NCBI GenBank assembly: GCA_000697055.1
Contig: JNDT01002360.1
Location: 1-64,000 of the forward strand
Length of the DNA stretch: 64,000 nt
Reading direction: 5' to 3'
DNA from: Saksenaea vasiformis B4078
Lineage: Eukaryota > Mucoromycota > Mucoromycetes > Mucorales > Saksenaeaceae
Part shown: piece after piece, positions 32,117 to 56,087 of the stretch
How positions within the stretch are numbered: the first letter of the stretch is position 1
How the letters are laid out: each line of letters starts with the position of its first letter
Program-made: the position numbers and the translations under genes
The notes under the pieces: model-generated
The model's input: the letters and a program-made list of their open reading frames with translations, nothing else
Told to the model about the DNA's origin: nothing
Database searches by the model: none

Positions 32117-33746
32117 ATGGTGAAGAAAACTTTGTTATGGACGGCTCTCGCTGCTACCTTTGCTGCTCTGACTCAAGCCGAGCTTCCTGAAAGCGACGTG
32201 ATCTCCTTGACCAAGGACAACTTTGACAAGCAGGTTCTCGGTGAAGATCTTATGCTTGTCGAGTTCTTCGCGCCTTGGTGTGGTCACTGCAAAGCCCTTG
32301 GTAAAATTGAAAGAATCCCCGTTTTGCAACGCAAGACTAATTTTTATGACCAGCACCCGAATACGAAAAGGCTGCCACAGAACTGAAGACCAAGGACATT
32401 AAGCTCGCCAAGGTGGATTGTACTGAGAACCAAGACCTCTGCATGGACTATGAAGTCCGTGGTTATCCCACACTCAAGGTCTTCCGTAAGGGTGAGAACT
32501 CTGAGTACAAGGGTCCCAGAAAGGCAGATGGCATCGTCAGCTACATGAACAAGTACGTGGCTACCTTTTTTTTTTTTTTTTTTTTGATTCCACCGTGTCA
32601 TTAAATGTGTCATTTGTTGTTTTTAGGCAAGCTGCACCTGCGTTGTCTGATTTGACTGCAGACAACATTGAGGAATTCAAGACATCCGACCGCGTTGTGG
32701 TTGTTGGTTTTGCTGCTCCCTCGGATGAAACCGCCAAGACAACAATCAAGTCGGTTGCCGAGTCATTGCGTGATGACTACTTGTTCGGTTTGAGCACTGA
32801 TGAAGCATTGGCCAAGAAGCACGGTGTCGAATCTCTGCCCGCTATTGTGGTGTTCAAGAAATTTGACGAAGGCCGTGATGACTTTGCTGGCGAGCTCCAA
32901 AAAGAGGAAATCGAGAAATTCATCAAGACCAGCGCTGTTCCTTTGTTGGATGAAGTCGATGCTTCCAACTTCGCTTTCTATGCTGAATCCGGTCTTCCTC
33001 TCGCCTATATCTTTGCTGACTCCAAGGAAATGCTCAAGCCTTTGGCTGAAGCTGTGACACCTGTGGCCAAGCAGTTCAAGGGCAAGGTTAACTTTGTACA
33101 CATCGATGCTCAGAAGTACGGTGGACACGCTGGCAACCTTGGTCTTAAGGAACAATGGCCCGCATTTGCCATCCAACGTTTGGACACTGGTGCCAAGTTC
33201 CCTCTTGATCAAAGCTTGGAAATCACCAAGGAGAATGTCCAATCCTTCGTCGAAGACTACGTTGCAGGCAAGATCAAGCCCACACTCAAGTCAGAGGATA
33301 TCCCCGCCGAAAATGATGGTCCCGTGAAGGTCGTTGTTGGCAAGCAGTTCCAGGATATTGTTCTCGACAAGTCCAAGGATGTGTTCCTGGAGGTTTATGC
33401 TCCCTGGTGTGGTCACTGCAAGAATCTTGCACCCATCTGGACCGAGCTTGGTGAATTGGTTAAGAAGCAGGATACCAAGGGCAATGTTGTGATCGCCAAG
33501 ATGGACGGCACCGAAAACGATATCCCCGAAGAAGCCAACTTCAGCGTGGAAGGATTCCCTACCCTGAAGTTCTTCAAGGCCAAGACAAACGAGCTCGTTG
33601 ACTACGAAGGAAACCGATCTCTGGAGGATCTTATCAAGTTCGTGAACGAGCATGGCAGCAGCGACATTACCTTCAAGGCCGAAAGCAAAGAGCAGAAGGA
33701 GGAAGGCCAGCAAAAGGAAGAAGAAGCTAGCCACGATGAATTGTAA
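32117..33746 (+). CDS. PDI1: Protein disulfide isomerase
   Basis: Exons 32117-32300, 32354-32552 and 32627-33746 give 500 aa. Residues 1-21 are a cleavable signal peptide ending TQA. Two thioredoxin domains carry active sites WCGHC (C55/C58 and C389/C392) in the a and a' domains, with b and b' between. The protein ends in an acidic lysine/glutamate tail and HDEL, the fungal ER-retrieval signal. Length and order match fungal Pdi1. It forms, breaks and rearranges disulfides in secretory proteins in the ER lumen. Codon use is strongly biased to GCT, AAG and GTT, as expected for high expression. The two introns are 53 and 74 bases; the second carries an 18-base T run. Confidence 0.97.
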
Positions 33747-37218: not shown

Positions 37219-38731
<1,513 letters not shown>

Positions 38732-45093: not shown

Positions 45094-46361
45094 TTATAAG
45101 TCGCTGACCATTGGTTTTTGCACAACGACAACGTGGAAATTACTGTAGCAGCGATATAGCTCTATTTCCCGGGATGCATCCTGCAATCTTTGCTTAAAGC
45201 CTTCTGTCGATGGCTCTCTTCCAAAGTACTGATTTACCGCCGGTTGACTATGTGATAAAACGTTAAGTAGATCATCACGGAACATAACACCTAGACGCCC
45301 GCCTAAAAAAGGAATTGATGCCATTAGTAATGCCGTTACTTTTTTCTGCTTTGTCATCTTAAACGTACCCCATAATCCGATTGGTAGCGATAGATACTTT
45401 TCTAATCGATTCTCAGCATCTTCAGGTATTACTGTATTCAGTTGTCGTGCCAGTCGTGGTGAGAATCCTCGGCTCTTAGCGGTCTCGATAACTAGGATCA
45501 TGTATTAGCCTTGCCATCACTGAAAGAAAGAGGGAAAAATTGGCGGAAAAGCTTGCCTTCCTTGTTTAATTGTTCGATTATTGGACCAGCAGAGTATATC
45601 AACATATCCATTTCCATTATCTCAAGGTATCCGCCAGGTCTGAGGATCCGCCAGCAGTCCTTGACCGTTTGCGCATACTGATCTGCCGTGAAGGCCAGGT
45701 TCATAAATCGGATGTGGCAATAATCGACACTCGCCTCCTCGAAACGTTGATGCAGTCCGTGCAGCACGTTGTGGCGCCAGAATCGACAATTGGGCGGCGC
45801 ATTGGCAGGAAACATGTCAGTGCAATCGATGCCGATCACTTCGAGCTCCGGATGGTCCTCAGCAAGGTCGATACACCAAGCTCCAGGGCCACATCCAATA
45901 TCTAGAACGCGTGTCATCTTGTCAAAGTCGGTCGGAATATCGAATTCGCCTTCAAAGGCCAGCTTGATTAGGTCGTTCTTCAACTGGATTCGATCGGCCT
46001 CGTCCTCGCCCGAAGTCAGCAAGTAACTCGAATGAGTTTTCACTCTACAGTCATCGGTGTCTTTCTGATGCCGCCGATTTCCGTTGAACGTTGTAGTCGT
46101 AGCCGATCGTTTGGGTTGTCGCTTTGTTTTGGACAGAATGGACACAAGGGTCGATCGTTGTGATGATCCCGAATGAGGTGTGAAATCTGGTACTGCTGCT
46201 GTCTCGGCATCACCCACTGATTGTGATCGTTGCTGCCGTGCTGCATGACTGTGTCGTGATGGCGATGACGTTGTCGATGTAAACAACGAGAAAAGCGAGG
46301 TATTTTGCAGCCAGGAACGTCGCCGCTGTTGTTTCTTCTTTGTGTTATCCGTATAAAACAT
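45094..46361 (-). CDS. Class I SAM-dependent methyltransferase
   Basis: Exons 45557-46361 and 45094-45491 give 400 aa. The first 115 or so residues are basic and Ser/Thr-rich without a clear domain. Motif I VLDIGCGPG (152-160) binds the methionine part of SAM, followed by EVIGIDCTD, SVDYCHIRFMNLAF and the motif III-like RILRPGGYLEIMEMD. The downstream half (SRGFSPRLARQL...) resembles fungal LaeA-like and related methyltransferases of broad, often secondary-metabolic, function; the substrate is unknown. The only intron that restores the frame has a GC donor (AG|GCAAGC) and CCTAG acceptor, 65 bases. The stop lies well separated from neighbouring genes. Confidence 0.85.
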
Positions 46362-46612
46362 TTTATAATTATTACTAGTGTATAAGTATCAGAATGGAAT
46401 AGCGTTTGTTGGCGTAGCGGAAAAACGATGGCTCGCTCGGCAACGCCAGTAGTCTTCGCTTTGATAAACGATAATTAAGTGGTTGACACATGTTTCCCGA
46501 AAGCGGGGCTCCGTGACCATGTCTGTAGCCCTGAAATCCCCGATTGTTAGACTATTTACGGAAATCAGACCCAGTCCTTACCTGTCATACAAAGTGACGA
46601 GTGAGCAGTTCC
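46362..46612 (-). ncRNA. Candidate guide (omega/fRNA-like) RNA region 3' of the Fanzor gene
   Basis: Fanzor and TnpB nucleases use an RNA encoded at or just after the 3' end of their gene. This gap immediately follows the Fanzor stop on the same strand. It contains a nested hairpin at 46488-46522: outer stem ACATG/CATGT and inner stem CCCG/CGGG with a 4-base loop. The same bases can also be read as an alternative last exon: a donor GTAAGG overlaps the stop, with CTAAC and TTTCAG before base 46532, and an open frame of about 47 codons follows. I cannot tell these apart from sequence alone. Confidence 0.3.
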
Positions 46613-49600
46613 TTACTGCCTAACTGTCCTGGACAGTGCTGCCGGACGAGATGCTAATTGGCATCCTGATTCGATGTAGCGAACTAAGATATCACGAATA
46701 TTTCGGCCGGCATTAACATCTCTATTCCAAAACTAATCAAATAGTTAAGTATCAACGTGTCAAGCCAAGCAGTACGGCTTACTAGAGATGTTCTGATTCC
46801 TCGTCTATCATGTGCGCACTGAGGGCACAGTCGGATAGGATAGACGATATTTCTATAATTGTTGCGAGCTATTCCTGTGTTAAAGAAATATTTATACAAA
46901 CCGGACTAAATCATACCGGGTCGGCGTCTATTGGGGCATTCACTGCTTAGATGCAGAATCTGCTCGTCGTCACCTAAGCAATATTGATGTTTGTGCTTGT
47001 GATGCCGGCGTCTGATATACTTCTTACTAGAGATCAATTCATATGAATCAGGTTTCCATTGTGTCCATTTGTTTCCCAAACATACCGATGATTACACAGT
47101 TGCATGTTATAGTCACGGAAATCGACTGTGTCGTGATGACATATGCTGCAGACTTTGCTGGTTTTGTACTCGTCTACGCATATGACTGGACATAGCTGTG
47201 CTAGCGCCTTGCGAAAGGTCTACACATGGATAGTAAGTATTAATAGGATTCTCACTACCAAGAGAACTTCAACACTCTCACCTTCACCGGTAACGGTGCA
47301 TATGTCTTATAGCCTCCACTATGCAGGTCGGCATCTCCGTATGCCACAAATGCCCGCCGCTGGTTACGTCTACTGTTTTGTGCCTCATGATGTTGACGAC
47401 GTTGGCGATACCGCGCTTTTTGGTTCTGTTTTTGCACATTTGCAACTGGAGGCTGACGCAGAGAGATAATTAATGAACGAAGAATAAGCAGGCAAATGCT
47501 CACCAGGGTTGAATTGGGATAAAATCCCCCGACTTGATCCGCGATAACGTCCATGGTCATACTTCTGGAAGAGTCCTGCAAGGCACGCCTTTCCCTGTGT
47601 CTGTAATGACGGTTGAACTCATCCGTTCTGGAAAAGTCCATTCAATATGACCACATATTGACAAGAACATTCTGTAGCTACCTCTGTTTTTCGCTAAATT
47701 GTGCCGTGAGAAAGCGCTGGAATTCTGGAACAGACGAGGCCGTCTTAGGATGTTCCGAAAGACGATCGTAGACTTCCTGCATGTTGGCAATTTCACGATT
47801 TTTGCTTTCTATCTGAAGACTCCAGTTAAATTTGGAGCTGGCTCTAAAAAAGCATGCAGTTATTGCACTGACTACATACAGGATCTTGTTCTTACTGATA
47901 ATAACCATTCGTGACAGAAAATGTATGGCTATTTCTTGCCTCTTCATCATGAAGATCCTCCGCTGTGTCTACGGCGGTCACAAGGGAACGAATACCTACG
48001 AAATCCGTATATAGCCTTTGTTAGATTCTTTGTAGCAAGGAGCATACCAGGATCGATTCCCACAATGCGAGTTCTTTCAGGGTCTAAATGGCGTGCGACC
48101 GTTAAGCCCGTGGGCTCCTTCTTCAAATGATAGATGCCACACTGCAAGTCAGAGAAATCCCTGTTACGAGGAAGGAACTGAAAGTCTCTTTGGGAGGACG
48201 GATAAGATGCTGAAATGCAACCTTTCTGTTAGCGTGCTCCACGGTATAACAAAAACTGGACTGACCTTGGTTTGGTTTGCGAGATTTAAATCTGACTGCC
48301 ACCATAACACCATCCGTCTCAAAGCCATAATCAAACTCTACTTCTGGTAGCTCATCGTTGTTTATCCCTTATATGAATAAGTGTAAGGACATTACTTCCA
48401 TGCTGTTGAATATGACCGAACCTTGTGCCCGGCGGCGGCGAGGCATGACTCTATCAAGACAAAAAATCGCTTCCCAAAGTTGTTCGCGGTATATCATGTC
48501 CTTGAGCGCATTATTGAAGGTATGAAAGCCTTGCAAAGGACCCTAACGTAAGAGTGTCAATTTTTCTTCGGTCAATTTATGTTTTTTTTACGAGACACCT
48601 ACTGCTAGATTTTCCGGGAGGTTGGTGGTAATGTCTTTAAGCGCCCAGTAAAGTATTTTACCGGTTACGGGGAAGTAACCTAGTGTAGTATTATTGCTTA
48701 GCTCATATTATGGTTCAAACAAGGTCACCAGGTTTCAGGTTACCTATCTGGTTTTTAGACATTGGAACGAGAGTCCAGCCTTTTCCATTGAGTTCATTTG
48801 TTTGCTTAAGCATTAATGCTGAGAGACGAAGCATACAGGGAAGCAACCGCTGGTTTTCATCGTCACTGAGGTCTGCGGTTATATCTACATTGCCAAGGTT
48901 TTCCTGATAAACATTCTGAAACTCTCTAGGATGCTCCCAACGATAAGTAATCGTGAGGAAGAAACTACGTTAATATCTTGTCTTGTCATACCCATAAAAG
49001 ACTTCAAGGTCGGTGATTGAATCATCATCTAAAGTTGTCCATGCACTACGGTCAAAATGTTCTTGTGCTGTTATTCCCCGGACACATTTGGATGCTACAA
49101 ATTTGAAGCAAGGCGATATCACGTAAACAATGTAAAGCAAATACATTAAGCAGTGGAGTAATACCTAGGCTTCTCGCATCGTGTCGCTGATTTTGCGGGT
49201 GGTTCGCAAATAGTTCATCAAAAAAGGCAACGAAGGTTCGCTTCATATATATTTGAAGATTCGACGTGATGTGTAGGTATGTGTCTATAAATACGAAAAG
49301 TTTATGTTTTCTTCTTCTCAAATAGTTCCACTTACTAGCAACTATTTTCCCCGCAAATGACGAGGCCAGCTCTCTTAACATATATGTCAACGTGGGAAAC
49401 CGGTAGTTTTCTGCAGAAGTTGTAAGTGTATCTGGCCTTACAAATTTACATGTATACCTTCTCCCGTCGCTGGGTTCATTCTGCAAGTATCAAAAAAGTT
49501 TTCGAAGGTCTGCCGTAGATCGACACACCAGCGGTAGTTTGACTATTGATCATGGGAGCAGATTTAGTTTATCCTGATAACTTCCTAACATCACTACGTA

Positions 49601-50017
49601 CAAACACTATCCGAATGTTTGTGCCAGGATCTCGAGTCAGGATCATTTTAAACGCGGCAATAAAAAAGACTTCGTCGTGGACAGGAGGAAAGGTTTCGAA
49701 CTGCCCATCGATCCAACGATGGGTGTGCAAATTGACAAGCAACATTGCACACTGACAAGCGGTTGCGTACTGTTCTGCCACTGAACGAAAAACGCCCTAT
49801 ATCAGCTTGTACTTAATATATTTGAAAGAGTTTATATGAGAATTCCATAATACAGTACCCTAAGCTGCTTGTGGTTTTCCTGCAGAAAATTGCAAAGCTT
49901 CAATTTTCGAGCAAATGAGTAGTCGCGGCCAGGCAACTGCGAGATGGGGGTGTTCTGGTACCCATACCGTCTCCTGCGGGCCGGGGACTCTGCAACTTCG
50001 TTATGTTGTCTATCCAT
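46613..50017 (-). CDS. Fanzor (eukaryotic TnpB-like) RNA-guided RuvC nuclease
   Basis: Eighteen exons keep frame to 795 aa: 49859-50017, 49602-49796, 49336-49480, 49284-49165, 49094-48992, 48925-48744, 48679-48603, 48542-48396, 48350-48266, 48209-48048, 47995-47896, 47843-47682, 47627-47504, 47452-47282, 47219-47086, 47026-46917, 46874-46783, 46732-46613. RuvC motif I is VGIDPGIRSLVTAV (D457). The later blocks are AYGDADLHSGGYKTYAPLPVK, VDEYKTSKVCSIC (E661; zinc ligands C668/C671), RLCPQC (C742/C745) and WNRDVNAGRNI (D761). This order and the DE-x2-TS-x2-C-x2-C block match Fanzor1 proteins, eukaryotic relatives of IS200/IS605 TnpB that cut DNA with a guide RNA. All catalytic residues are present. 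The join at 48350 (AG in GATGAG, 45-base intron) is the weakest. No transposase or terminal repeats were found beside it. Confidence 0.88.
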
Positions 50018-50917
50018 GTTTTTGGGAATAAAAAGGAAGGGAGATTTGTTGTCAAATAGTTAGATGGAATACATGTGAACTCGTAGGACTGTTGTTTCGT
50101 TATCCATGATGGGACGCTGCTAATAGGCGAACACTTTTTGCACCTCCATGTCTGCTGAGCCTTTCAGCAAGGGGAATTGCTACGAACACTCAGCGTCTGC
50201 CTCTTAGTGACACTCATGTAACATAATTTAGAGAACTGTTAAATAGGTAGCTTCGAATTCTCTATGAAATCTGATCGTACGCAAATATCAACGAGTTGTC
50301 AAGCCTCCGTGGATCGACTGTTTAGGCTTAGATAGATGAAGTGTTGATATCTATTTGTAAGCGCTCGACGAGGACTTAATTTACGGGCATTCAGCTTATG
50401 GGCGCTCATCTTGTGGACGCTAGCTGCACAGATACCTACGATTTGGTTTTTATTCGAGGACGGTCATACGCGCATTAAAATTCGGTAAGGTGTTTGTCCA
50501 GCCGCCGGCGAAAACACATTACATGAGTGTCCCTAGCAATTCCCTTCAGCAAGGTATGGCCAGTGCAAATAGGCAGTTAACTTTGTAAATGACGACGTAC
50601 TTGACGGGCCGCTACTTTCAAATATGCATGTAAGTAACTATTGCGATAAGAGCAAGGGAAATCTGTCCAGAATTCTGTGACGGCGGCCGAGGAATATCTT
50701 TCTACAACCTTCATATCGATATCAATGGAAAATGATTAAGAAGTGTCATTCTCTTTGTCATTGGATCCTCTGGCCAGGGGACCAGTCATCCAGGCCATAG
50801 GACCTGTTTCGTTTTGAATATTTCAAATAGATAGGCTCAGGAACCAGAAGACAGATAATACATGGGCAATACAACAACGTTGGATCAAGAGAATACTGAT
50901 TATGCGTTTTTTAAAAA

Positions 50918-51334
50918 ATGCAGTTGGCTTGTCCAACTCATATGCTAGCCTACCATCCATTTTACTGTCTCGAAAAATATTTATCAGTAAAGGAACAAAG
51001 ATTAAGGACTTCTCTGCCTGTCAGATTCTTGTATACCATTAACGGTTGCCGTTACACCACTAGCGTGGCAGATCTTCTCATTTCGCCACTTATTTTTGCT
51101 GCAATTGCTCAGAAAGATCTGCTACTACCTCATCTTCTTCGAAAATATTCTCTTAAATGTTGGCATCAATGGAAGCGAATACTTCTTCATGATGCATGTG
51201 GTCGTTGTGATGCTCTTGGCAGAGTGTTCATAGCTGACAGTAAGAAGCAAGCTCGTTTTTGGAGCTCCGTCACCATAGAAGTCCGAAGATTAACTGAGCG
51301 ATTTTATTTGCTGTCTTTAACATCCGAAGATTAA
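50918..51334 (+). CDS. Hypothetical protein, 138 aa
   Basis: An ATG-started, uninterrupted frame divergent from the Fanzor gene, about 900 bases from its start. It is basic, Leu/Ser/Arg-rich, with six cysteines including CGRC, but I recognise no domain. It could be a real gene, one exon of a larger one, or a fragment of the element that carried the Fanzor. No splice sites or neighbouring exons were convincing. Confidence 0.3.
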   Translation: MQLACPTHMLAYHPFYCLEKYLSVKEQRLRTSLPVRFLYTINGCRYTTSVADLLISPLIFAAIAQKDLLLPHLLRKYSLKCWHQWKRILLHDACGRCDALGRVFIADSKKQARFWSSVTIEVRRLTERFYLLSLTSED

Positions 51335-52270
51335 GTAGAAGTTCTCATTCGTTTATGTTAGTTTCCGAAGATCACCCTTAACAGGCTACTTTCATTGGCG
51401 CACAACAGCACAGACACCGCAGGCGAGCCGAAAGCGGAGCGTATAGCGGTTGTTCAAAAACGAGCACAAGCGATATTTGTTGTTTCATGCCTCACCACTT
51501 TTGGAAGAAAATAGATTCGCCTCTGTCGGAGTTACGGTACGTGCTTAGCAGATGCCATTGGTATTCGTCAGATAACCTTTTGTTTGCAGGGCTTACATGA
51601 TCGATATACGTAGACTCAGTTTTACTCACAAATACAGCGTCAGATTATTAATATTTTATTGTTCTTGGAAATCAACATTTGTGTAACCCTGTATCCGCTG
51701 AAAATTCTGAGAATCATATGAAAATGAATCTCTCGCACTGTCAATTCGCAAGAAATGAAAGCAAAGTGACCAATGGTGTTTGCATCATCAGAAAGGGCAA
51801 ACTATATAAGGAGCTTCGGAAACGGCGAAAAAATCTGACTCCCTGTCTTGCCACATAAGACAATAGCATATTGCAGCTCATTAGCCAGGCGGTATAATAG
51901 AGTTTAGGTTTCTGTATGCTCGAAAGACTGTCTTAGCAGATTATATTTACCTTGATCGGAACATAGAGCTCCTTTTTCATAAAAGAGCTACGGTTTATTT
52001 ATGGAACGCAATAAGGCACGGTCTATCCACTTTTTGTTTCACTTTGCCTGGGCTCAGTTCATTCAATTTATCAAGCTTATGCTGTACACTCATGCATCAT
52101 TGTACATGCTCTGATTTATTTTGGTAAAACCATTGCTGCTTCATGTTCCTCACTTGAAAACTAAAACACTCATGCAAGTGGATCCCATTTTCATAAACGG
52201 TTGTGCATTGCCAACTGTTTCTTGACTGTAAGAGTTAAAGAGAAATAATACTAAGTTCTATTTTTTCAGG

Positions 52271-53045: not shown

Positions 53046-54814
53046 ATGCTTATTTTGAAGTACAATACGCTTTCTGCTGACGATCTGTTTGTGGTGGAAC
53101 GAGTAAATTTCAAAATTGGCTTTTAAAAAACGTAACATTCTAATGATCTCTACGGTATCCCTCTAGCGTTTCTTGCGGTGGATAGATAACAAAGGTCCGG
53201 TGATCGATCCCGAATTCAGTGTACTGAATTGTACCCGGACCGATATTTACGGTCATCTGCTTGGTATTTTTACCAAGCTGAAGGTATTAGACACGCTCAG
53301 GATCGATGCATCCCAACTGCTCGATTTCTTGATTGACGTTGATGCTGCTTATTTGGACGCACCCTATCATTCGTTCTACCACGCTGTTGATATCGTGACC
53401 GTCTTGTACTATATGCTTACCGAGTTGGTGGCGGCAAAATACCTGTCGTCCTTGGATGTGGCGACATTGCTACTCTCGGCACTATGTCATGATGCTGGTC
53501 ATGTAAGTCTAATCTTTCTTTAAAATTAAGGAGGCAAGCCAAAAAAAAAAAGAAAAAAGAGATTTTTGTGCCATTGTTTCCCCAATCCCCTCGTAAGAAA
53601 GGAAAAAAGAAAGCTATATTCCTAAGGAGTTCCTTATTTTTTCCCCCTTTCTCCTCATACGTTACAACTTTGCCACTGATTTTTATTGCTTGCATTGCCT
53701 TATTCAAACAATCGTGATATGGTTATCTAAATTATCTGCATAGCCGGGATTTACCAACTTATATCAGGTCAATTGCCAGACGCAGTTAGCAAAACGATAC
53801 AATAACACGTCTGTTCTCGAATCTTTCTCGGTCGAAATCGGTCAAAGTTTGCTGCATAAACATAGACTGCTGAAATCGCTGGAACACGATCAACAACAGC
53901 AATTCCTGGAGAAATTCGAAAATATGATCTTGTCTACAGATATGGTGTACCATTACGATCTTCAAGAACAACTTGGTTCACTGGAAGAAATGATAGCCTG
54001 TATGATGTGGTTGGATTCTGACGATACGAGCGATGCAGATAGCTTACTGTGGGACATGAGCTGGTGCAGCGATAACGATAACAGTAGTTTTGAGAATGGC
54101 AACGACAACAGTGCCAACTGCAGTATCCTTGACGACGAGGGGTCTCTACTTGATGGAAAACAGCGTCAGAGCCTGTGTCGAATCCTACTACATGCAGCAG
54201 ATATTAGCAACACCGTCCGCCCATGGCCAGTGTCGAAACAATGGTCAGATTTGATTGTTCAGGAGTTCTTCCGCCAAGGTGATGCCGAAAAAGCAGCCGG
54301 ATTGCAGGTTTCGCCTGGAATGGACCGCGAACATGCCAGTCAACCGGATATCAGTCTCAAATTTGGCGATTTCGTGGTGAAGCCCTACTTCGAGGCTCTT
54401 TCGAGCGTGTTGCCAGCCGGCCATGTATTTTTGGATTACCTTGCGCAGAATCGAGAAGAATGGATACGACTGAAGGACGCCCCCACGATGGCCACCACCG
54501 CATCTCCGCCGCCTCCTCTTGGTCTTCATGAACGACAATTCCCCGAGAGTCTGTTACCTGCACAACCTGTTTTGAATCCTACCGGTCGACGTGTCAGCGT
54601 GCCTGCTGGTCTGGTTGTTATTCCGGATCACAGATACTATTCTCCTCAACGTCGCCGCAAAAGCCCCCGGCATGCCGTTGGTTTCCGTAGCACGAGCCAT
54701 TCCACTCTACGTCAGATCAACAATGACAGAATGGACTTTTTCTTTCATCGCCGAAGAAGTGAACAGATGTGCAGCTACAACGACGCGTTTCTCGAGTCAC
54801 CCATGGTCATCTGA
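53046..54814 (+). CDS. 3',5'-cyclic-nucleotide phosphodiesterase (class I)
   Basis: Exons 53046-53102, 53167-53502 and 53744-54814 give 487 aa. The catalytic domain has YHSFYHAVDIV (H87, H91), the metal-binding HDAGH|PGFTN (H127-D128, split exactly by intron 2) and LLHAADISN (D284). These are the histidines and aspartates of class I PDEs. Family knowledge: it hydrolyses cAMP and/or cGMP, ending PKA signalling. An Asp/Asn/Ser-rich insertion of about 60 residues lies between the second and third motifs. A Pro- and Arg-rich tail with possible kinase sites (RRRKSP) follows the domain. Intron 2 (241 bases) is long for this window. No N-terminal regulatory domain is visible. Confidence 0.92.
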
Positions 54815-55409
54815 GAGATAAAAAAAATCATGATCTCTAAACAAACAAACAAAAACATAACATCGGAAGCTGGTTTCTCTTATACGCCCTTTTCTTGTAC
54901 GAGTCTGTTCCCTTTCTCTGTTCTTCTTTGTGGGTGCGCGTGTGTATTGAAACTGTACTTTCTATTAGGATTTTTTACTTTCTGTATCATACTTTCCGCT
55001 TGTTCATAAATATCATTTTTGATGCATAGACATTTTATGTCTTTTAGTAGAGTTTGTCATGATCAATGACCCCTTAGTAGCGACAAAAGAAGAAATGCCC
55101 ATGGGGTAATTGCTGATCGACACGTTTTGTTTATCCTCAAACATTTCAAAACCGGTTCGTCAAGATGGATAAAAAATCCTGTTGAATCATGTTGTGCAAC
55201 CAGGCTTGGTTTGTTGGTGGTGGGGGAGGAAGCGCGTAAGACCACATGGCCTAACAAACATCATTAAATACACACACATGCAAATGTAAATAGACATTTA
55301 CTCTCACACACTTGCATAAGAAGAGAGAGAGAGGTGTTAGTATAAATTTCTCGCCAGTTCTTTTTATTCTTTTCCCCCTTCCCACATCTTTTTTAGCTTT
55401 ATATCCACA
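54815..55409. other. Intergenic spacer
   Basis: 3' region of the PDE gene and promoter of the RGS gene, with pyrimidine-rich tracts just before the RGS start. No gene is seen. Confidence 0.6.
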
Positions 55410-56087
55410 ATGGCATTTCAATCTCCTTTGACACTCGAGACACTTTTGTACGACACAGCTACTGATCTATTTCATGAATTCGCTGCTTTCCTTCAGCGAA
55501 CGTTTTGTATCGAGAATCTTGTTTTTTGGATGGCTGTACGACATTATCAAGACTGTGCTCAGCGCCACTATCAGCTACTTGGTGATAACCCATTAAGCAA
55601 TAGCGCCTCCTTTCAAGCTAAATGTCTCGCTATTATTGACACCCACATCCAACCTAATTCGCCTCAAGAAATCAATATCCCTTGCGATATGCGACAGAAG
55701 ATCCTCACTGACATCCAAAGTGGCAACTATGATCCTGCTATTTTCGATCCAGCGCTGGAAGCCGTAGTAGAATTGATGCGAGCCAATTCATTTATTCCTT
55801 GGCTGACTGAATGTGCCCCAGCTTATTTACCAAAGCTTCCGCGATCTTCGTCAATGCCATCATCATTTCACCAGGAAAAGCGTCCACATTTACAACAACA
55901 TGAACAGATGCGTCCAAGTTTCTCGTCCTGTAGATCCAGTGCGTATGACCAGCCTACAAAAGGAATATTTAAACGAATGAAACGAACGCTGGGATTAGCG
56001 ATACCCCGTCAACACCTGTCCGCTCCAAACACACCACGGACTTCATCTGATATTATTCGGTTTACCTGGAAAAAATCACGTCGATGA
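55410..56087 (+). CDS. RGS-domain protein
   Basis: A single exon of 225 aa. Residues about 14-145 form an RGS domain: LETLLYDTATDLFHEFAAFLQRTFCIENLVFWMAV, then INIPCDMRQKIL and a C-terminal helix with FIPWL. The tail is Ser/Arg-rich with a basic end (WKKSRR). Family knowledge: RGS proteins speed GTP hydrolysis on G-alpha subunits and so shut off G-protein signalling. It lies next to the cAMP phosphodiesterase, which also damps this pathway. There is no DEP, membrane or other extra domain, so this is the short type. Confidence 0.87.
   Translation: MAFQSPLTLETLLYDTATDLFHEFAAFLQRTFCIENLVFWMAVRHYQDCAQRHYQLLGDNPLSNSASFQAKCLAIIDTHIQPNSPQEINIPCDMRQKILTDIQSGNYDPAIFDPALEAVVELMRANSFIPWLTECAPAYLPKLPRSSSMPSSFHQEKRPHLQQHEQMRPSFSSCRSSAYDQPTKGIFKRMKRTLGLAIPRQHLSAPNTPRTSSDIIRFTWKKSRR

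Follow-up and report, generated by a model that had tools for sequence, protein, structure and literature searches.

The window analysed here is the whole of a 64,000-nucleotide stretch of Saksenaea vasiformis B4078 (Mucorales; assembly GCA_000697055.1, contig JNDT01002360.1, positions 1 to 64,000). Its minus strand carries an intron-rich gene for a Fanzor, an RNA-guided nuclease of eukaryotes, which lies inside a transposon with inverted repeats, target-site duplications (TSDs) and many relatives elsewhere in the genome (Table 1). The locus is very probably one copy of a multicopy, non-autonomous, cut-and-paste DNA transposon in which the only gene found is the Fanzor1-type nuclease. This reading is carried by the number of copies with defined ends and 8-bp duplications, by the catalytic signature of the protein and the selection acting on it, by a conserved block 3′ of the gene, and by oriented insertion at a fixed distance from a target motif; the same evidence supports a family that is non-autonomous and was recently mobile.

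Table 1. Coordinates of the Fanzor transposon and associated features in the window.
Feature	Position	Strand	Remarks
Whole transposon, 4,923 bp	46507..51429	minus	Left end GGCTCGCCTGCGGTGTCTG at 51429, right end ...ATGGTCACGGAGCC at 46507; copy alignments stop there
TSD, left copy	51430..51437	minus	CCGCTTTC
TSD, right copy	46499..46506	minus	CCGCTTTC
Target motif, window copy	51446..51457	minus	TTGAACAACCGC (consensus TTCAAACTCCGC); first base 20 bp from the first base of the duplication
Fanzor gene	46613..50017	minus	19 exons, 797 amino acids, no internal stop
Exons 1-5	50017-49859, 49796-49602, 49542-49458, 49410-49336, 49284-49165	minus
Exons 6-10	49094-48992, 48925-48744, 48679-48603, 48542-48422, 48367-48266	minus
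Exons 11-15	48209-48048, 47995-47896, 47843-47682, 47627-47504, 47452-47282	minus
Exons 16-19	47219-47086, 47026-46917, 46874-46783, 46732-46613	minus
Catalytic D459	48052..48054	minus	GIDPG, RuvC-I, DPG signature; GIDPG 457-461 unchanged in window and 20/20 copies
Catalytic E663, alternative place	47169..47171	minus	E unchanged in window and 20/20 copies
Catalytic D763	46718..46720	minus	NRDVNAGRN, RuvC-III; kept in window and 19/20 copies, H in L022
36-nt nearly invariant block after stop codon	46577..46612	minus	Putative guide-RNA (omega/reRNA) scaffold, with last exon and right end
Nested short element, 373 bp	50172..50544		21-bp inverted repeats GGGAATTGCTA...; upstream of the Fanzor gene

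The final gene model was set by hand from splice-signal and comparative models and from an alignment with 20 further genomic copies; a model based on splice signals only and two comparative models were dropped, because their introns ran too far or they retained exons that contain stops in sister copies. A first-pass annotation had placed an intron-rich, Fanzor-like gene on exactly this span and strand. That placement is borne out, as are the intact reading frame and the many exons, but the 18 exons and 796 codons then counted become 19 exons and 797 amino acids when checked against sister copies. The 18 introns measure 42-70 nt each, and the acceptors of exons 13 and 18 both have an in-frame alternative site 6 nt downstream. 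Sister copies have the identical intron set, and intron richness is therefore no peculiarity of the window copy. The intron 4 region (window 49335-49270 and the aligned copies) occurs as two sharply different alleles, the combinations of which do not track overall copy similarity; such mosaic alleles may be a sign of recombination or conversion between copies.

Comparison of copies shows that both the exon structure and the encoded protein have been maintained. Among 16 near-complete sister copies, GT-AG is intact at 273 of 288 introns, with 96.9% of donors and 97.9% of acceptors kept, whereas control GT/AG conservation is 62-66% inside introns and 82-83% within exons. Divergence across 17 copies (window included) is 0.066, 0.057, and 0.191 at the first, second, and third codon positions and 0.169 in introns, so that third positions change about three times faster than first and second. 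The ratio of nonsynonymous to synonymous substitution (dN/dS) among seven mostly intact copies is 0.174. The Fanzor protein is under purifying selection between copies, and the gene is far beyond chance on account of splice-site retention, third-position excess, and dN/dS. Four of the 16 near-complete sister copies (L022, L024, L028, and L037) are, like the window copy, fully open with all splice sites kept under the gene model.

As judged by its sequence signatures, the protein's identity as a Fanzor holds up. Fanzors are told from ordinary TnpBs by two signatures, a DPG in the RuvC-I motif and a glutamate that precedes the zinc finger by six residues, as set out in the relevant portion of PMC10711439, and the window protein matches both signatures exactly: the stretch E663-YKTSKV-C670 places the glutamate six residues ahead of the first CxxC. 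D763, the third catalytic D, follows the zinc finger. All three catalytic residues named in the first-pass annotation are present, although each is numbered two higher than the D457, E661, and D761 given there, and the two CxxC pairs that it reported lie at 670 and 744. The zinc-finger search expression given for TnpBs in that portion of PMC10711439, CxxCx(12,18)CxxCx(4,8)D, does not fit the protein, which has 70 residues between its CxxC pairs and 15 before D763; the 70-residue stretch is an unusual feature and likely a Fanzor1-like extension. The protein is called Fanzor1-type on its length, its introns, and its host group. Residues 648-783 align with four other Fanzor C-termini of the genome in a profile comparison (E 2.1e-5, probability 77%), and this alignment takes in the glutamate, the two CxxC pairs, and the closing RD. 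The genome is very rich in Fanzor genes, with at least 137 PF07282 matches (150 of 388 candidates scored); the window Fanzor, whose zinc finger is split between exons, is absent from those matches.

The mobile unit, 46507-51429, is larger than the gene, to which the first-pass coordinates are confined. The inverted repeats of this unit are imperfect, its two ends agreeing at 13 of 22 terminal bases; the family form is GGCTC-N7-RTGTCTGTRG, from which the left end in the window deviates at the last base. A search of the genome (38.7 Mb, 666 contigs) for further copies and element ends yielded many copies, inverted repeats, and target duplications. The left end has 28 matches at up to 2 mismatches. 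At the same tolerance the right end has 34, a number that rises to 47 when 3 mismatches are allowed; neither reversed control pattern matched anywhere. Some of the 47 are doubtful (C656:6793 lies in the flank of L021 and is not the end of any known copy), and a few further ones, such as that on C596, may belong to other families. The ends are sharp and common to most copies read, and are altered or missing in others (e.g., L026, L032, and L036). DNA matches range from 78 to 98% identity, and the closest copies are about 96% identical. An inverted-repeat match on another contig lies about 580 bp from a Fanzor zinc-finger match in the expected orientation (G000:C584:65372 and 65948); this locus is possibly a diverged relative of the family.

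Ten loci have both ends found by script, and six of these show a TSD of 8 bp or more; the duplications of L026 and L037, whose ends the script did not find, are visible by eye. Cross-pairs of ends sharing at least 8 bases number 11, against 0.47 expected over all pairs. Most of these plausibly represent single insertions whose two ends fell on different contigs. The pairing of the window with L023, however, is fortuitous, and L069 can be the partner of L054 or of L055 but not of both. A duplication length of 9 bp was replaced by 8 bp, as a G adjoins the left end in 27 of 31 left flanks, whereas the base at the matching place in 29 right flanks is evenly spread; against the shorter call, 9 bases match at three of the six scripted duplication loci and, by eye, at L037. 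In one pair of copies (L029 and L040, on contigs C458 and C573) the left duplication of one is the right duplication of the other, CTAGCATC, an identity that may point to recombination between copies, to haplotypes, or to misassembly. No empty copy of the window insertion site was found elsewhere in the genome.

An early impression of 5′-truncated copies with a constant 3′ end had suggested retrotransposition or Helitrons. These candidates were dropped, since the partial copies mostly stop at contig ends: of the 21 on contigs of known length, 18 finish within 10 bases of one, and their incompleteness is therefore an assembly effect rather than truncation. The partial copies that do not end there are those on C360 and C5 and the rearranged one on C632.

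The first-pass annotation had raised the possibility of a domesticated element. The open frame, the purifying selection, and the lack of any transposase found in the element could all be accommodated by a Fanzor that the fungus has adopted for some role of its own and retains at a single locus. The genome, however, does not hold a single or fixed locus without element ends. Many copies share the same ends, carry target duplications, and sit in diverse flanks, and the selection is seen across copies of which many are decaying. Domestication is thus largely refuted by the inverted repeats, the target duplications, and the 34 right-end matches, and the idea retains hardly any credibility.

The statement that no transposase is visible held: none was found within the element, and the Fanzor is the only gene found in its 4,923 bp. 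The left 0.9 kb has a single long open reading frame (ORF; 50915-51334, plus strand), which lacks a codon-position signal and contains stops in copies. Domain searches of the genome returned 48 MULE and 50 hAT matches, so both domains are common in it. Terminal inverted repeat (TIR) matches number 115, compared with 48 for the reversed control, and none of the 48 MULE matches lies, by eye, within 10 kb of a listed TIR match. TIR matches that fall outside known Fanzor copies include those at C596:130159 and C217:24420. KDZ had no matches in the genome, and the same search was also without matches in control genomes.

Insertion of the family is oriented, at a fixed distance from a target motif. 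Thirty-one distinct left flanks were aligned, 12 of them from the set made up of the window copy and the 20 long loci, and 19 from short loci (L041-L059); L024-L027, L032, L033, L035, L039, and L040 gave none because the left end is missing or altered. These otherwise unrelated flanks have TTCAAACTCCGC in common, beginning 20 bp before the duplication. The motif occupies positions -29 to -18 and is followed in 25 of 31 flanks by a C at -9, the first base of the duplication. TCCG occurs at -26 to -17 in 19 of 31 flanks, as opposed to 1 of 31 at -60 to -51 and 1.7% of random 10-mers (p 1.8e-26). The best match to the motif falls at -29 in 19 flanks and at -32 to -29 in 27, while the null expectation at -29, from random 100-mers of the window, is 2.1%. 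The size of the effect and the fixed position make chance unlikely. Comparison of the flanks with one another at E up to 0.01 gave three pairs, all weak, and two of these cover the motif itself. The 29 right flanks contain no CGGA within their first 45 bases, and hence no mirror image of the motif; insertion therefore proceeds with the left end toward the motif. By eye, at three loci with an extra G at the junction (L030, L053, and L054) the motif is displaced by just as much as the duplication, and at L034 the two displacements agree to within one base, as expected if the motif belongs to the target. The motif of the window copy is weak, with 8 of 11 scored bases by hand count, and is tied with a match at offset -17, which the scan reports as best.

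The motif might instead be a promoter feature. On this view the element simply targets promoters and lands pointing the same way as the gene downstream, which would allow the Fanzor to be expressed from a host promoter. The next ORF of the window begins 146 bp past the right end and runs in the same direction, and right-flank ORFs of 70 amino acids or more number 26 on the Fanzor strand (one of them spurious) and 10 on the opposite strand. Bacterial Mutator-like transposases, according to the pertinent part of PMC3942029, likewise insert in one orientation 15-17 bp from promoters. Counted per locus, however, the bias is 12 versus 6 of 18 (p 0.24), introns weaken the ORF test, and left-flank ORFs divide 14 to 16. 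The core motif is found 127 times genome-wide against 81 for the reversed control (1.6x), partly owing to a tandem array on C270. Promoter targeting, examined through ORF orientation and genome-wide core motif counts, was accordingly not established and is entertained here as a tentative, rather unlikely alternative. The frame beyond the right end of the window copy, at 45498-46388 and 45094-45504 on the minus strand, is methyltransferase-like by eye; the copy sits upstream of it.

A second alternative assigns the choice of site to the Fanzor or its RNA, in a form of targeted transposition coupled to the nuclease. Targeted transposons have just this geometry of oriented insertion at a fixed distance, and selection maintains the Fanzor although its element has no known transposase. 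Yet shuffled sequences match the motif or its complement as well as any part of the element does (best 9 of 12), the motif lies 20 bp from the duplication rather than adjoining it, and unequal transposon ends suffice for orientation, as the part of PMC3942029 on this subject indicates. A nuclease that selects the site is thus highly improbable. The wider proposal of a eukaryotic targeted-transposition system, in which the nuclease or a ribonucleoprotein partner acts in target choice or in donor-site repair linked to TTCAAACTCCGC targeting, is also improbable; if true, nuclease and targeting would be mechanistically linked as in bacterial targeted transposons.

The candidate guide-RNA region lies at the right end of the element. 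The 36-nt block, which is also seen in an alignment of 20 sequences, has a divergence of 0.029, whereas 79 overlapping intron windows of equal length have a median of 0.164 and a minimum of 0.095, none being as low. Conservation extends upstream into the gene, where fourfold sites of codons 769-796 diverge by 0.088 as against 0.21 overall, which is unusually little. The low divergence of the block fits a guide-RNA scaffold, and short hairpin-forming stretches can be seen in it by eye. The segment 46506-46640 has an unremarkable folding energy (z 0.39), and Rfam returned a single sub-threshold match, to a CRISPR repeat (E 0.8). In known Fanzor1 transposons, as described in the relevant portion of PMC10711439, the guide RNA arises at the right end and is predicted to include the inverted repeat and the duplication.

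A mechanism can be proposed in which a DDE transposase with its gene outside the element mobilises the family in trans. This transposase would recognise the two unlike ends together with the TTCAAACTCCGC target motif and would insert the element so that its left end faces the motif. Transcription of the 3′ end would yield a guide RNA; its scaffold would include the right end along with the 36-nt block, and its guide portion, read into the right flank, would be flanking host DNA. After excision, the Fanzor-guide complex would cut the emptied donor site, and repair from a sister copy would restore the element there. TnpB-type nucleases have such a role in donor repair. A passenger gene equally useful to all copies would be expected to decay in a trans-mobilised family. 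With each copy's own flank as guide, the benefit would fall to that copy, and a benefit in cis would explain selection on a passenger gene not needed for trans-mobilisation; the selection seen across copies suggests such a benefit.

Several results weigh against the reading of the window as one copy of a mobile, Fanzor-bearing family with oriented insertion. The PF07282 profile matches residues 650-691 (E 1.2e-5), but at 25.8 bits the score falls just under the curated gathering cut-off of 26.3. A sequence search of the PDB matched no chain at E up to 1. The sole relative found in protein databases, with about 8,000 candidates scored, is the hypothetical protein VTP01DRAFT_10036 of Rhizomucor pusillus (P0001), which matches 26% of the query at 31% identity; repeating the search with an alignment retrieved nothing, a search from P0001 retrieved only P0001 itself, and the predicted structure of P0001 is too poor for use (mean pLDDT, or predicted local distance difference test, 31.6). 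A single distant relative indicates, as far as the database search shows, a divergent and barely annotated branch. The motif was derived from the same 31 flanks in which it was counted, so the counts flatter it, and no clear target-adjacent motif stands beside the duplication, so that a link between insertion site and Fanzor target is not seen. No MULE or hAT match lies within 8 kb of the TIR matches listed (by eye, 100 of 115 listed). Twelve of the 16 near-complete copies have at least one frameshift, stop, or splice change under the gene model, one of the open copies (L022) has lost D763, and four of the ten loci with both ends (L028, L029, L031, and L038) have no TSD.

The defects in near-complete copies, the missing duplications, and the mosaic alleles would also suit an inactive relic, in which gene conversion accounts for copy similarity and selection acted only in the past. 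Copy pairs about 96% identical, four other copies open with every splice site intact, and many perfect 8-bp duplications argue otherwise, and a relic is regarded as unlikely. For the multicopy transposon preferred here, continued activity, which the first-pass annotation had suggested as an option, is possible in view of the closest copies and the open copies.

Other features at and beyond the locus deserve brief description. The nested 373-bp element has a 9-bp duplication, CTTGCTGAA, visible by eye; it is also present in L021, L022, L023, and L026 and missing from other copies that reach that point. Ordinary host genes surround the transposon (32505-33746, 37801-38433, 53744-54814, and 55341-56087), which we take by eye to resemble, respectively, a protein disulfide isomerase, a phosphoethanolamine cytidylyltransferase, a cyclic-nucleotide phosphodiesterase, and an RGS-domain protein. 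Elsewhere in the genome, contigs C29, C33, C74, and C428 share an identically scoring Fanzor zinc-finger match and an exact 29-base string about 23 kb apart; this repeated segment of at least 23 kb with another Fanzor is perhaps a large transposon.

The family bears on the question of why an RNA-guided nuclease is retained by eukaryotic transposons that lack a transposase. It offers a direct test case, combining many copies, several open frames, and strong selection on the protein with a narrow scaffold candidate and defined insertion sites marked by target duplications. The oriented motif at a fixed distance provides a handle on the transposase and an instance of aimed integration in a eukaryote comparable with that of bacterial targeted elements. 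The literature searched, which covered few subscription papers and no supplements, yielded no report of an oriented target motif for Fanzor elements.

The Rhizomucor protein P0001 has GIDPG and VDEYKTS in common with the window protein, but it is a predicted protein of 530 amino acids without the C-terminal CxxC and RD region; we know of no characterisation of it. The Fanzor1 nucleases SpuFz1, PpFz1, and GtFz1 have a RuvC catalytic site like that of the window protein, and SpuFz1 and PpFz1 are also fungal in origin, as stated in the sections concerned of PMC10432273 and PMC11423790. The window protein differs in its 70 residues between the CxxC pairs and in matching no chain of the PDB by sequence at E up to 1. 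The Fanzor1 transposon of the insect ascovirus SfAV, as portrayed in parts of PMC10711439 and PMC3627910, is non-autonomous and carries a Fanzor1 only, like the window element. Its guide RNA arises at the right end, with TIR and duplication predicted in the scaffold (PMC10711439, same part); the guide RNA of the window family would likewise be a right-end product, inferred from conservation in its case and shown experimentally in SfAV. The SfAV element further differs in its 4-bp duplications, unknown superfamily, and viral host (PMC10711439, PMC3627910, same parts).

Among the closest counterparts are the Fanzor1 elements of zygomycetes. As the portion of PMC3627910 devoted to them reports, Rhizopus, Phycomyces, and Mucor have Fanzor1 elements that lack a transposase; these appear to be of the MuDr type, their duplications are 9 bp long, and their families are listed as Fanzor1 in its table; the window family can, by inference, be placed with them. 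These Mucorales elements (ROr-4, PBl-3, and MCi-4) resemble the window family in their fungal host, Fanzor gene, and lack of an internal transposase, and also in their inverted repeats and long target duplication. Their duplications are 9 bp, whereas those of the window family are 8 bp, and the same portion of PMC3627910 describes no oriented target motif, which the window family has. Orientation itself has a parallel in the bacterial Mutator-like elements TnGBS and ISLre2, which insert directionally and at a constant spacing from a target feature, an arrangement explained by their unequal inverted repeats (PMC3942029, in the part on these elements). The unequal ends of the window family fit that explanation, and a role for the nuclease is therefore not needed. 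The TnGBS/ISLre2 elements are bacterial, encode their own transposase, and target sigma-A promoters, with the target adjoining the right inverted repeat (same part of PMC3942029), whereas in the window family the motif adjoins the left end and no transposase was found. The combination of an 8-bp duplication with an oriented target motif sets this family apart from the Fanzor1 elements described for Rhizopus, Phycomyces, and Mucor.

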